Assembly (NCBI GenBank): GCA_020723345.1
Contig: DYJA01000001.1
Coordinates: 179,602 to 243,601 of the forward strand
Direction: 5' to 3'
DNA from: Candidatus Aquidulcis sp.
GTDB taxonomy: Bacteria > Chloroflexota > Anaerolineae > UBA4142
DNA length: 64,000 nt
Within the stretch, counting starts at the first letter, position 1. The number at the start of each line of letters is the position of its first letter. Position numbers and translations under genes: made by a program. The notes beneath the pieces are model-generated. The model had not been told where the DNA came from. It worked only from the letters and a program-made list of their open reading frames with translations, and made no database searches. Shown here in pieces: positions 49,825-56,858 of the stretch.

Positions 49825-49863
49825 AAGAGTGAAGAGGGCTTGAGAGGGCGGAAGAAGGTAGAG

Positions 49864-51015
49864 ATGGACAACAACAAAAAACTGATCGCAGGACTCCAAG
49901 CCGCGTGGACGCGCGAAATTGCCGGGGCGAAAACGTACCGCGCGCTCGCGCAACGCGCGCGCTCGCAGCAAGAGCGCGACGTTTTGAATCGGCTGGCGGA
50001 AGCCGAAGAGCGCCACGCGCAGACCTGGGAAGCGCGGCTGAAGGAACTCGGCAGCGCGCCGCCGGAGTTCCGCGAGTCGTTCGTCGAGCGCGCGCGGCGC
50101 TGGGCGCTCGTCCAGTCCGGCACGTCGAACGCGCTGCGGAATATCGAGGCGACCGAAGACAGCGACAAGGACGCGTACGCGCAATTGCTGACGAGCGCGA
50201 CGGAGGAAAAAGATCGCGTCGCCGTGCGCGCGACCCAGGTCGAAGAAAAGACGCACGCGAAACTGCTCGGCGAGATGACGCAGCCGCAAGCGCCCGAGGC
50301 GCGGCTCGACGCGCTGTTGCAGCGCGAGCGCTGGCACGTGCGCGGCGGCGGCTGGATCGGTCAGGCGATCTACGGGATGAACGACGGCATCGGCTCCGTG
50401 TTCGGCGTCGTCGCCGGTGTGGCGGGCGCGACGAACGCGTCGGCGATGTTCGTGATCATCAGCGGGATCGCCGGTGTGATCGCCAACGCGCTGTCGATGG
50501 GCGCGGGCGCGTACCTCGCGACGAAATCGGAGCGCGAAGTGTACCAAGCGGAAATCGCGCGCGAGCAAAGCGAAATCGAACTGAACCCGGAGCAAGAGCG
50601 CGAGGAGTTGGCATTGTTCTACGAGTTGAAAGGTTTTACGCCGGACGAAGCGCGCCAACTCGCGGTGCGGATGGCGGAACGACCGGAACAAATGCTCAAG
50701 ACGCTCGTCGCGGAAGAGCTGGGACTTTCGGCGGATACGTTCCCGAATCCGTGGCGCGAGGGTTTGAGCGCGGGCGTGTTCACCGCGCTCGGCGCAGTCG
50801 TCCCGATCATTCCGTTTTTCTTCGCGAGCGGATTTTCCGCGGTGGTCGCGTCGTTCGTGGTCAGTACGTTGGCGTACTTTGTCGTCGGCGCGGCGAAGGT
50901 GTTGGTGACCGGACGGAATTGGTTCCGCAGCGGTTTGGAGATGCTGCTGATCGGTTTGGGCGTGGGCATTCTCACGTACTTTATCGGGACGTTGTTTCAA
51001 GTGGAAATGAAATAA
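49864..51015 (+). CDS. mbfA: MbfA-type ferritin-like/VIT1 fusion, iron or manganese exporter
   Basis: 383 residues. The N-terminus (about 1-140) is a rubrerythrin/ferritin-like helical domain with E..K..YRALAQ, EAEERHAQTWE and EEKTHAKLLGE carboxylate-His metal ligands. The C-terminus (about 155-383) is a VIT1/CCC1 membrane domain with YGMNDGIGSVFGVVAGVAGA, GAGAYLATKSEREVY and EERE-rich cytoplasmic loops. This fusion is known as MbfA, which exports iron during peroxide stress. The ATG at 49864 follows AAGGTAGAG. Confidence 0.9.
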   Translation: MDNNKKLIAGLQAAWTREIAGAKTYRALAQRARSQQERDVLNRLAEAEERHAQTWEARLKELGSAPPEFRESFVERARRWALVQSGTSNALRNIEATEDSDKDAYAQLLTSATEEKDRVAVRATQVEEKTHAKLLGEMTQPQAPEARLDALLQRERWHVRGGGWIGQAIYGMNDGIGSVFGVVAGVAGATNASAMFVIISGIAGVIANALSMGAGAYLATKSEREVYQAEIAREQSEIELNPEQEREELALFYELKGFTPDEARQLAVRMAERPEQMLKTLVAEELGLSADTFPNPWREGLSAGVFTALGAVVPIIPFFFASGFSAVVASFVVSTLAYFVVGAAKVLVTGRNWFRSGLEMLLIGLGVGILTYFIGTLFQVEMK

Positions 51016-51069: not shown

Positions 51070-51108
51070 AGACCTTCGAGGCGCTTGCGCGAAACCTCGA
51101 AGGTCTTT
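51070..51108 (+). terminator. Terminator after mbfA
   Basis: AGACCTTCGAGG and CCTCGAAGGTCT form a 12-base-pair stem around a GCGCTTGCGCGAAA loop, followed by TTGCTTT. Its arm matches the terminator at 6236. Confidence 0.8.
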
Positions 51109-51157
51109 GCTTTGGCGCGGGGTTGTGGTAAAATGGGGATGGAGGGGGACAGGGACC

Positions 51158-51460
51158 ATGGCGCGGAAGATACTAAACAAGTATATCATCCTGTTTTGCG
51201 ATGAATGGCACATACCTGAACCGGCTTACTATTGGATTGATTCCGTGAAGGGAAAGAATCCGAAGGATGCAATCAAGAGAAATCTTCCGCATCTGCTTCG
51301 CGTTGTGAGAAGGATATTGATGCTCGCAAAAACCGAAGTGGCTGATTACAAGCTCGAAAGATCGCTCTATGTTGTGCTGGCAGATCACTGGTTATCCGCC
51401 AATGCAGCATACTGGCAAGCCGATCTAGCCAACCCTCGTGCGACTCTAGAAATATTGTAA
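51158..51460 (+). CDS. Hypothetical 100-residue protein of the accessory block
   Basis: No domain recognised. The sequence is rich in aromatic residues (EWHIPEPAYYWID, HWLSANAAYWQ) and predicted mostly helical. The ATG at 51158 lies within a purine-rich stretch (GGAGGGGGACAGGG upstream). Base composition changes to AT-richer here and stays so until 53.7 kb. It lies 69 bases upstream of the first nuclease-like gene and is probably part of the same block. Confidence 0.5.
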   Translation: MARKILNKYIILFCDEWHIPEPAYYWIDSVKGKNPKDAIKRNLPHLLRVVRRILMLAKTEVADYKLERSLYVVLADHWLSANAAYWQADLANPRATLEIL

Positions 51461-51529
51461 CCGAAGATGCTGAACGGAATTTTGTTTCTCGCCCACTCTT
51501 TTGACACACCAATTGTGGAGGCAAGAGCC

Positions 51530-52510
51530 ATGAAACATTCAACCGACAAATTCATCGAGTTGATGCGGCATCGGTATGGTCCCGAAGAGAAAGTGGGACG
51601 TGGAAACATACTGAACTTTGGCGGCCAAGTAACGTTCGCAATTGGAAACTCGAAATTGCACGCCAAAGGTCATTTCTTTTTTTCTATACAGTCGGACTTG
51701 ATTGAGGCGAAGCGTACCAAGCAGCCTATGCCTGCTCTTGGGGTCTATGCAGCCTTGATCTGTGATGACGAACAAACTGTTCTGATCTTGCCTCAACGAC
51801 TCGTGTCTGAAGCGATGAGGGATTCACCAACGGATAGATTCAACCTTCATCTTCGAGATCAGCAATATTTTCTTCGCACCACAGGGCATCCGTTGCTTGA
51901 TGTTACAGAGTACCTGAACAGGTACCCCGAACCAATAGCAAAGACAGAGGCTATCGAGCAGACGAAAGACGCGGTTGCAACGCCAGAGCAGCAAGAGTCG
52001 GAAATTCAGGATCACACGCGTATTCAATGGATGTTGATTGGCTTTGGGCGCGCTGCCGGGTATTCGGTTTGGGTGCCACAGAGCGATAGGAATAAAGAAT
52101 TCGATTCTGGAAAGTTTTCAGAAGTTACCATTGGCGATTTACCCAATTTTGGTTTTGACCAAAGTACAAACCAGATCATTTCAAATATTGATGTTCTCTG
52201 GCTTGAAGGCAACGTAATTCACAAAGCGTTTGAAATTGAATCTACCACATCGATTTATAGTGGACTTCTTCGAATGTCTGATTTGGTCTTGTCGCAACCT
52301 AATATCAACATAGACCTGCACATTGTCGCACCAAATCGTCGCCGAGACTTGGTGCGGAAGAATATCTTGCGCCCAACTTTTGCGAAACTCCGCCCGAAAT
52401 GCTCATATATTACGTTTGAAGAAATTATGACCAAGTACGCAATGTTCAAAGATATATTGAGAAAGCAACAGGCCCAAATTCGCGATTTGCTCGAAAGCGA
52501 AAAGTTCTAG
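51530..52510 (+). CDS. Two-domain protein with restriction-endonuclease-like C-terminus
   Basis: 326 residues. The N-terminal domain (to about 135) has GHFFFSIQSDLIEAKR and ends in DVTEYLNRYPEP. The C-terminal half has a PD-(D/E)XK-like core: NIDVLWLEG followed by KAFEIESTTSIYSGLLRMSDL, then DLHIVAPNRRRDLV. The Lys of ExK is not in the standard place (EIES), so catalysis is uncertain. GGAGG upstream of 51530 decides the start over the in-frame ATG at 51467. A distant paralogue follows at 52775; together they look like a defence or accessory module. Confidence 0.65.
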   Translation: MKHSTDKFIELMRHRYGPEEKVGRGNILNFGGQVTFAIGNSKLHAKGHFFFSIQSDLIEAKRTKQPMPALGVYAALICDDEQTVLILPQRLVSEAMRDSPTDRFNLHLRDQQYFLRTTGHPLLDVTEYLNRYPEPIAKTEAIEQTKDAVATPEQQESEIQDHTRIQWMLIGFGRAAGYSVWVPQSDRNKEFDSGKFSEVTIGDLPNFGFDQSTNQIISNIDVLWLEGNVIHKAFEIESTTSIYSGLLRMSDLVLSQPNINIDLHIVAPNRRRDLVRKNILRPTFAKLRPKCSYITFEEIMTKYAMFKDILRKQQAQIRDLLESEKF

Positions 52511-52770
52511 ACGAGAATCTACAGTCTGTTTCCCACGAGTTTTCAGACTGGAACAGCGAATACATTAACGCGACAACCAAGAAAGATGCTCTACGAATTT
52601 TTGCGTCTCACCACAAGATTGGGATCAGCCAAAACAAGTCGCCCAAGAATTGGCATTGGTGGGATGGCGAGTGGTATATGAGTTTTCGCTTCATTCGCGA
52701 AGTTGCCCAGAGACCCAAAGCATGTCCGCACTGTCACGGTACAGGAATCATCGTGACTGGGGAGGTTTAA
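52510..52770 (+). other. 86-codon protein-like frame without a start codon
   Basis: In the -1 frame relative to the gene ending at 52510, codons run without stop from upstream of 52510 to TAA at 52768. They encode credible protein: DWNSEYINATTKKDALRIFA, NWHWWDGEWYMSFRFI and a C-terminal CPHCHGTGIIV zinc motif like that of DnaJ. No ATG, GTG or TTG precedes it after the last upstream stop in this frame. It may be a frameshifted C-terminal extension of the upstream protein (the overlap contains GCGAAAAGTTCTAG), an independent gene with a rare start, or a broken gene. Confidence 0.6.
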
Positions 52771-52774
52771 CGCT

Positions 52775-53728
52775 ATGGCTTCAAAGAAGAAGGACATCAG
52801 AGAAAGATTTGTTGCCAAGATTCGGCCATTCAAGCGGATTGAACCGGTTCCGAAGTTGTCCAGTGTCTACACCACATTCAACGAAATACTTTTGGATCTT
52901 CGGTATTCTGGACTGATGAGAAGAAATTATTATTGGTTCTTCATGGACACTCATCGTCTTAATGAATGGCGCGGCAAACAGAGATTTGTCGAGTGTTTCA
53001 TTTGCGGTGACGAAAATACGGTTGTGTTTGTTCCCGATGAAAAAATCTTTGAATGGTATGCTGGTGTTGAGCCCAATCGCAAAGGTCATATTTTTCTGAA
53101 AATTGTCCCCGAAAATGACCGGCTGATCATGAAAGTTGGTTATGAACATCCTGATATTGATGCTCAAGAGTACCTCAACCGGTTCGATTTGATTTCGCCG
53201 CTGATCCCGAAGCCGCTGCCTCGAATGTCGGATTCGCCTGCTATTTCGCAAACGATTTTCGAGGAAACCAAATCAGCAATCATGGTAGATTGTCGCTTGC
53301 AAGGCGATTCGTTGCATGATCGAGTTGTTGATATGATCGCGCAGATCGGAGAATGGTCGGGCTTTGAAGCAAAAAAGTCGTATACTGTCGAACCAAAATC
53401 GCCGTATGCCATTGACGTGGTTTGGATGGAAGGCGACGAATTGGCTCTTGCTGTGGAAGTTCATGTTGGCGGAAATGAGACTGAGGCCAAAGACAGACTT
53501 CGCCAAGCATTGCGATTTGGATGCCGTAAGGTCATCATTGTGTCGGTTCCGAATGCAGTGGGCAGAGTGCGAAGCGTGAGTCATTTTGAAGCCGATTTAA
53601 AGAACTGGCTAGAGATTTGGAGCGTCGCGCGAGTGTACAAAATGTTCATGAGCGGATATCAATTCTATGAAGAATTTCGTCCGTTTCGCAAGAGACAGCG
53701 ATCAGATGATATTGCAGAATATTTGTAG
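52775..53728 (+). CDS. Second two-domain restriction-endonuclease-like protein
   Basis: 317 residues, sharing layout with the protein at 51530. The N-terminal domain contains VECFICGDENTVVFVP, GHIFLKIVPEND and DAQEYLNRF (compare DVTEYLNRY). The C-terminal domain has a PD-(D/E)XK-like core: YAIDVVWMEG followed by LALAVEVHVGGNETEAKDRL and CRKVIIVS. The ExK lysine is replaced (EVHV), so this may be a DNA-binding or inactive form. GGGGAGG precedes the ATG. Composition is AT-rich relative to the genome. Confidence 0.65.
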   Translation: MASKKKDIRERFVAKIRPFKRIEPVPKLSSVYTTFNEILLDLRYSGLMRRNYYWFFMDTHRLNEWRGKQRFVECFICGDENTVVFVPDEKIFEWYAGVEPNRKGHIFLKIVPENDRLIMKVGYEHPDIDAQEYLNRFDLISPLIPKPLPRMSDSPAISQTIFEETKSAIMVDCRLQGDSLHDRVVDMIAQIGEWSGFEAKKSYTVEPKSPYAIDVVWMEGDELALAVEVHVGGNETEAKDRLRQALRFGCRKVIIVSVPNAVGRVRSVSHFEADLKNWLEIWSVARVYKMFMSGYQFYEEFRPFRKRQRSDDIAEYL

Positions 53729-55934: not shown

Positions 55935-55963
55935 TTGCGTCGCACGCGCGGTTGTGCTACAAT
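55935..55963 (+). promoter_or_regulatory. Promoter of the methyltransferase gene, leaderless
   Basis: TTGCGT (55935-55940), 17 bases, TACAAT (55958-55963). Transcription should begin near 55970, at the GTG codon at 55971. Confidence 0.65.
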
Positions 55964-55970
55964 GCGCGGC

Positions 55971-56858
55971 GTGGAACTCGACAAGATCTATTGCGCCGAT
56001 TGCCGCGCGATGCGCGAGGTGGACGACGACTCGGTGCAACTCATCGTCACGTCGCCGCCGTACAACGTCGGCAAAGAGTACACGCAGCATCGCGACGCGA
56101 TGGAATTGCGCGAGTATCTGGCGTTCCTCAAACAAGTGTGGCAGGAATGTACGCGCGTGTTGTGTCGCGGCGGGCGACTCGCGGTCAACATCGCGAACAC
56201 AGGGCGCAAACCGTACGTGCCGCTGAGCGCGTACATCGCGGAGCAACTGTTCGATCTCGGTTTGCTGATGCGCGGCGAAATTATCTGGGACAAGGGACCG
56301 AGCGTCGGCATTTCGACCGCGTGGGGCAGTTTTGCGCGCGCGTCCAATCCGACGCTGCGCGACGTTCACGAGTACATTCTCATTTTTTGCAAAGAGTCGT
56401 ACAAGTTGGAGCAGACGCACGGCAAAGAAAGCGGCATCGCGAATTTGGAATTTGTCGAGTGGACGAAAAGCGTGTGGCATCAGCCCGAAGATCAAATTAC
56501 CGATGCGGGCAAAACGATGTGGCGCTTCGATACGCTCAGCAAAAAGCGTGACCGCAACGCGCCCGATCATCCCGCGCCGTTTCCAATCGATCTGCCGATG
56601 CGGTTGATGCTGATCTACACCAACATCGGCGACATCGTCCTCGATCCGTTTATGGGCAGCGGTACGACCGCGCTCGCCGCGAAGTTGACGCATCGGCATT
56701 TCATCGGCTACGAAATTTCGCAAAAGTACTGCCAAATCGCGGAAGAACGATTGCAAAAATTTGTCCCCGGCGAACGATTGGTGCCGCCACCCAAACTGAA
56801 AAAGACGAGAGTCAAAAAATCGCGTCGCGCGGCTGGAGAAGAATCGCCGACGCGTTGA
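55971..56858 (+). CDS. DNA methyltransferase, SPPY type (N4-cytosine or N6-adenine)
   Basis: 295 residues from GTG at 55971. The in-frame ATG at 55962 overlaps the -10 box (55958-55963) and would precede the transcription start, so GTG is preferred. The catalytic motif TSPPYNVG is at residues 27-34 and the SAM-binding motif DPFMGSGTT near residue 225, the beta-class order. SPPY is most common in N4-cytosine enzymes, but N6-adenine is not excluded. A basic tail (KKTRVKKSRR) ends the protein. No restriction enzyme gene is adjacent, so it seems an orphan regulatory methylase. Confidence 0.88.
   Translation: MELDKIYCADCRAMREVDDDSVQLIVTSPPYNVGKEYTQHRDAMELREYLAFLKQVWQECTRVLCRGGRLAVNIANTGRKPYVPLSAYIAEQLFDLGLLMRGEIIWDKGPSVGISTAWGSFARASNPTLRDVHEYILIFCKESYKLEQTHGKESGIANLEFVEWTKSVWHQPEDQITDAGKTMWRFDTLSKKRDRNAPDHPAPFPIDLPMRLMLIYTNIGDIVLDPFMGSGTTALAAKLTHRHFIGYEISQKYCQIAEERLQKFVPGERLVPPPKLKKTRVKKSRRAAGEESPTR

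Follow-up and report, generated by a model that had tools for sequence, protein, structure and literature searches.

In an AT-rich block of a Candidatus Aquidulcis sp. contig we describe two genes, P1 and P2, which we read, with somewhat more confidence than doubt, as encoding two restriction-type DNA endonucleases that stand alone and were acquired separately; most likely they are directed at modified or damaged DNA (type IV-like). As judged from the sequence, P1 and P2 would have arrived as separate cassettes, S+P1 and Z+P2, S and Z being small companion genes. The N-terminal domain (N-domain) would read the DNA target and the C-terminal nuclease domain (C-domain), whose active site departs from the canonical form (D-ExE in P1, D-ExH in P2), would cut, the target being incoming DNA that carries a foreign modification or lesion; an anti-phage role is presumed. 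If this is right, the set of solitary restriction enzymes gains a new DNA-reading module in the N-domain.

Results

A low-GC block of four genes behind a VIT1-family gene

Within the window, i.e. the whole stretch of 64,000 nucleotides analysed, four conserved plus-strand genes in the order S-P1-Z-P2 fill the block at 51.0–53.9 kb (Table 1). The GC content is 0.450 for both P1 and P2 (45% against ~59%), 0.463 for S and 0.476 for Z, as compared to 0.638 for the upstream gene, and the block holds the lowest 2.5-kb GC of the window (0.455 vs a mean of 0.586, sd 0.036). The copies of these genes in the related genomes G007, G004 and G010 are equally AT-rich, and the host flanks there have 61–65% GC. 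The ATG at 51530 is the likely start of P1, since the DNA resembles that of the G007 homologue from 51519 onward. The dN to the nearest homologue is 0.15 for P1 and 0.11 for P2, with synonymous sites saturated; by this comparison, both genes are under strong purifying selection.

Table 1. Features of the S-P1-Z-P2 block and its left flank (window positions)
Feature	Position	Strand	Remarks
VIT1-family gene with rubrerythrin-like domain	49840-51015	+	Host gene, left flank of the slot; PF01988, E 1.3e-64
Left junction of the slot	51070-51139		Palindrome, then conserved promoter-like TGTGGTAAAATGGGG stretch
S, 100-aa companion protein	51158-51460	+	Homologues in G007, G001, G036, G008
P1, 326 aa	51530-52510	+	N-domain ~51530-51960; predicted PD-(D/E)XE-type nuclease domain ~52010-52450
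P1 active-site codons	D221 52190-52192; E235 52232-52234; E237 52238-52240	+	
Z, CxxC small-protein frame	52474-52770	+	5' truncated where joined to P1
P2, 317 aa	52775-53728	+	N-domain as in P1, plus predicted PD-(D/E)XH-type C-domain
P2 active-site codons	D214 53414-53416; E228 53456-53458; H230 53462-53464	+	

P1 and P2 share an N-domain and a nuclease-like core with a replaced lysine

BLASTP aligns P1 with P2 across both domains (E=3e-7, 23% identity over 217 aa). The N-domains match in profile-profile comparison (E=3.3e-7, probability 93%), and D..EYLNR(Y/F) closes the N-domain in both proteins. For the C-domains, comparison of the P1-type set with the P2-type set gives E=2e-9 and a probability of 96%, while a control with reversed sequences gives 0.34; using just the P2 pair weakens the match (E=1.2e-4). 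The C-domain of P1 also matches the PADLOC model REase_II (PDLC03534, ‘type II restriction enzyme’) with E 2.7e-9 at model positions 176–321.

At the lysine position of the PD-(D/E)XK core, P1 has Glu (D221...E235-I-E237) and P2 has His (D214...E228-V-H230): both proteins retain the D and the E and, with the lysine replaced, fail the canonical D...(D/E)xK motif. The fold assignment stands despite the changed motif because the superfamily has accepted Glu variants such as BamHI, a member with a D-ExE pattern and Glu in place of Lys. Both D and ExE are invariant across the aligned P1-type C-domains (10/10). The His of P2, at a position that in most nucleases is Lys, Glu or Gln, counts against our preferred explanation.

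The P1 model, of moderate confidence (pLDDT mostly 69–88 in blocks of residues 211–320), has the alpha-beta-beta-beta-alpha-beta core of the PD-(D/E)XK superfamily, with the C-domain topology H152-175, E179-181, E222-226, E229-236, H242-255, E262-267. The modelled C-domain aligns with NucS/EndoMS, BsaWI, EcoT38I, BstEII, PaqCI and BamHI at VIA Z 6.9–7.7, where a Z of 7–8 can mirror a common arrangement and differences below 1 are ties. Many restriction endonucleases score 6–7.7, and restriction and repair endonucleases make up most of the top rows; the weight of this moderate evidence lies in the run of restriction enzymes and not in any single row. Foldseek with the P1 model returned no match at E<=0.001; EcoT38I, at 0.092, is the highest-placed restriction enzyme. 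The P2 model was left out of the fold search because its mean pLDDT is 41.9, and the predicted nuclease fold of P2 is drawn solely from profile homology.

Searches of Pfam, NCBIfam, PHROGs and PDB sequences yielded nothing useful with P1 and P2 and no family match for the N-domain, in which the P1 model has a confidence of ~35–57. By analogy, since it has no known fold or family, the N-domain probably reads the DNA target. An N-domain like that of P1 together with the C-domain is found in L007, L009 and L045–L050; viral scans with the N-domain gave no relatives.

Much of the preliminary description of this block holds on these grounds. It had proposed a common N-terminal domain ending in D..EYLNR(Y/F), changed catalytic lysines, a foreign base composition and a 100-residue protein preceding P1, all of which we find, and a PD-(D/E)XK-like core, which the model makes plausible for P1 and profile homology for P2. 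That it did not recognise the block as a described system agrees with our searches, in which P1 and P2 match no named one.

The slot behind VIT1 accommodates different restriction cassettes

The left flank formed by VIT1 is the same in seven relatives, and what follows it differs. Behind it, G007 has a YCII-like gene, P1 and S, then an M48 peptidase gene, and G010 has a methyltransferase, a TdeIII enzyme and Z, again followed by M48. The slot of G001, a member of the same genus, holds a methyltransferase, an EcoO109I-type enzyme and S behind a truncated VIT1. Two slots run into contig ends: G006 with a methyltransferase and a truncated TdeIII-like frame, and G008 with S, a methyltransferase and an incomplete gene for a similar enzyme. 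The slot of G012 is empty, with ~33 bp from VIT1 to M48, and those of G003, G004 and G009 have other neighbours, unrelated to restriction-modification (R-M).

The left junction is 80–89% identical to the stretches that directly precede three other R-M cargoes in G001, G010 and G006, and is in this way common to four different cargoes (the window, L062, L065 and L097). Its function is putative, as the consensus promoter scan did not list the TGTGGTAAAATGGGG stretch. From these comparisons the VIT1 slot appears to be one junction with exchangeable cassettes. No transposase or integrase was seen from VIT1 to plsC in the window, and cassette exchange via flanking homology would be a simpler reading than one by transposase or integrase. 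If right, the slot would be a clean example of restriction cassettes with shared companions replacing one another behind one junction. A metal-related role for P1, suggested by the VIT1 neighbour, was considered and rejected, since other R-M systems occupy the same slot.

P1 and P2 are independent modules

P1 occurs without P2 in the same slot of G007; P2 occurs without P1 in G004, elsewhere, behind Z and beside an MrfA-type helicase gene, where the homologue is 82% identical. The modules are therefore independent, and among the genomes searched no other has P1 and P2 together. A scan of genome contigs with P1 found the G007 homologue only.

The join between the modules seems to have left a trace. 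At the DNA level, Z is similar to its intact counterpart in G010 from 52523 on, just past the P1 stop at 52510, and the Z frame in the window has no ATG, GTG or TTG start; since the similarity starts there and the frame upstream is without a usual start codon, the Z start was probably cut off by the join. On sequence grounds, this is most simply read as the joining of an S+P1 cassette to a Z+P2 cassette.

S and Z accompany unrelated nucleases

S homologues are present in 5 of 119 genomes, the window’s own included, and Z in 3 of 119. S lies after P1 in G007, after the EcoO109I-type R-M genes in G001, after an EVE-nuclease gene in G036 and beside R-M genes in G008. The Z homologues of G004 (99 aa, 43% identity) and G010 (98 aa, 60%) have normal starts, and the comparison with G010 gives a dN of 0.27 and a dS of 1.7. 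A nuclease or R-M gene adjoins S or Z at each locus read. Neither S nor Z matched a family in Pfam, NCBIfam or other sequence searches, and viral scans with both gave no relatives. Their occurrence beside unrelated nucleases points to a putative common function; that they control expression or nuclease toxicity is a guess.

The preliminary description had suspected here a compact defence set of paired nuclease-like proteins, complete with a zinc-motif frame. The restriction- or defence-type neighbourhood is borne out, the pairing is not, given that P1 (G007) and P2 (G004) occur singly, and S and Z drop out as members of a P1/P2 set, as both also accompany other R-M enzymes. The zinc-motif frame is related to real genes (the G004 and G010 homologues) and has lost its start in the window.

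No methyltransferase accompanies P1 or P2

There is no methyltransferase gene between VIT1 and plsC in the window, beside P1 in G007 or in the 3.9-kb P2 contig of G004. P1 and P2 hence have no adjacent cognate methyltransferase, which would be expected of type II R-M, and its absence beside the nuclease is in keeping with type IV. The nearby N6/N4-type DNA methyltransferase gene at 55935-56858 is solitary, lies next to tRNA-Val 2.2 kb downstream of P2 and adjoins no nuclease gene in the window; it is kept order-wide at 57–77% identity, with or without P1/P2. We considered it as the cognate partner of P1/P2 and found this unsupported, given its conservation across the order; it is a candidate epigenetic regulator. 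The 6.3-Mb genome (G000) has ~27 N6/N4 methyltransferase matches over the Pfam family cut-off, an unusually rich R-M load.

C-domain relatives carry other front domains and occur in other contexts

Relatives of the P1 C-domain were found in 15 of the 99 genomes searched. A P1-type C-domain is fused to EVE (PF01878) in L004 and, below the curated cut-off, in L005, and is preceded by a HARE-HTH-like domain (PF05066, below cut-off) in L014; in L022, EVE is followed by a P2-type C-domain with ExQ. Bell, Wolf and Koonin (2020, PMC7641849) put forward EVE-PD(D/E)XK proteins as putative modification-dependent (type IV) restriction enzymes. No methyltransferase gene lies directly beside P1-like genes at the cellular-genome loci read; in L071, one small methyltransferase-like ORF is found ~1.7 kb away.

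In four genomes of one genus (L068–L071), a P1-like gene with an N-domain and an ExE C-domain is fixed between rplY-like and purE/purK genes and, from its sequence context, seems to be a vertically kept nuclease. A core setting of this kind, which the preliminary description had named as a finding that would refute its defence reading, is unusual for a mobile defence gene and counts against our preferred explanation; it concerns one branch in one genus.

The C-domain also has viral relatives. In three viral contigs (L074–L076), C-domain proteins of ~305 aa have a methyltransferase gene directly behind them, that of L074 matching Dam/D12; nuclease and Dam/D12-type adenine methyltransferase are likely a phage-borne R-M pair. 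This fits type II equally well and also counts against our preferred explanation. Phage records searched with P1 gave no match, nor did plasmids searched with P2.

L017 (G001:C121) is a 930-aa open frame that links a DNA-methylase-like region to a C-terminal relative of the P1 C-domain, in which the second acidic residue is altered (FEVA); this domain is possibly an inactive copy serving DNA binding. On plasmids (L033–L043, L103, L105, L106 and L108), orphan proteins of ~420 aa with a P1-type C-domain, annotated as ‘type II restriction endonuclease’ or hypothetical, lie in or beside copper and heavy-metal resistance genes of Pseudomonadota, Bacillota, Bacteroidota, Cyanobacteriota and Deinococcota. 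Of 17 such loci viewed, ~11 have clear metal genes nearby, ~4 have weaker ones (DUF305 etc.) and 2 have none. In the front half of these proteins a IKGLGPAVANILYF...PPFNTAIVNGYN stretch is conserved; by eye it resembles a helix-hairpin-helix, with no support from Pfam. One member, L036 4260-5525, is copL of C. metallidurans pMOL30, an assignment based on position 181,548 as given in PMC7563307.

Discussion

Function of P1 and P2

Modification- or lesion-directed action appears likeliest because the P1/P2 cassettes contain no partner methyltransferase to protect the host, and because, where P1 and P2 have the N-domain, close relatives have EVE or HARE-HTH, which are known or presumed readers of modified bases. 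The main competitor, which we hold to be unlikely though worth keeping in mind, is that both proteins are type II enzymes of the ordinary, sequence-specific kind and that their methyltransferases have been lost or work in trans, from 55935-56858 or another locus. The slot does carry type II systems in sister genera, the genome offers ~27 N6/N4 candidates, a Dam-type methyltransferase comes directly after the C-domain relatives of phages, and PGAP names several relatives type II; yet P1 has no adjoining methyltransferase in either of its genera, nor has P2 in G004, and the 55935 gene is present order-wide regardless of P1/P2. Less probable still is a role in DNA repair, with P1 and P2 acting like NucS/EndoMS on lesions or mismatches and not on foreign DNA. 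In its favour, NucS/EndoMS heads the fold list (Z 7.7), one genus keeps P1-like genes at a fixed place next to purE/purK and rplY, and a C-domain family sits within copper-resistance islands. With differences below 1 in Z being ties, however, NucS is not favoured over restriction enzymes, and the patchy distribution, the foreign composition and the R-M slot with its R-M companion genes all speak against repair.

Two other possibilities strike us as very improbable. Adjacency on one strand, the common N-domain and the uniform composition could suggest that P1, P2, S and Z form one two-subunit defence system, but P1 stands alone in G007 and P2 in G004, no other searched genome has both, and the join truncated Z. 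It is equally hard to credit that the domains no longer cut and are left as DNA-binding proteins or decaying remnants: although both proteins lack the canonical lysine, P2 having His, and the start codon of Z is gone, all ten aligned P1-type proteins retain D and ExE, dN is low with dS saturated, and BamHI and BglII are examples of active ExE/ExQ enzymes.

Beyond the preferred reading of P1 and P2 as separately acquired type IV-like enzymes, a broader and more tentative idea, which we would sooner doubt than adopt, is that the N-domain represents a new class of reader for modified bases or lesions, and the C-domain a promiscuous nuclease module. Together these would make up one superfamily of solo nucleases lacking a methyltransferase, with roles from phage restriction to the control of DNA damage under metal stress. 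Within it, and just as speculatively, the C-domain would pair with EVE, HARE-HTH, the N-domain and another front domain, that of the copper-island family including copL.

Comparison with known systems

Among the closest described arrangements is that of the EVE-PD(D/E)XK proteins (PMC7641849), likewise solitary genes with a front reader domain and a PD-(D/E)XK nuclease; L004 and L005 join EVE itself to a C-domain of the P1 type, whereas the N-domain of P1/P2 is unrelated to EVE and unnamed. PADLOC REase_II is significantly matched by the P1 C-domain; the N-terminal half of the model is unmatched, P1 has no partner methyltransferase, and P2 does not match the model. BamHI shares with P1 the D-ExE residue pattern and, in the model, the PD-(D/E)XK core (VIA Z 6.9, rmsd 4.3, 111 aligned), but no sequence match of BamHI to P1 or P2 was found; BamHI is a single-domain enzyme paired with a methyltransferase. 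NucS/EndoMS gives the top fold rows for the P1 C-domain (rmsd 4.0–4.4, 101–105 aligned), with the matches confined to that domain and tied with restriction enzymes, and P1/P2 have no Pfam or NCBIfam hit. Finally, the TdeIII (PF09520) and EcoO109I (PF14511) R-M systems differ from P1/P2 in nuclease family and in having an adjacent methyltransferase, and share with them the slot, the left junction, the S or Z companions and the low GC content.
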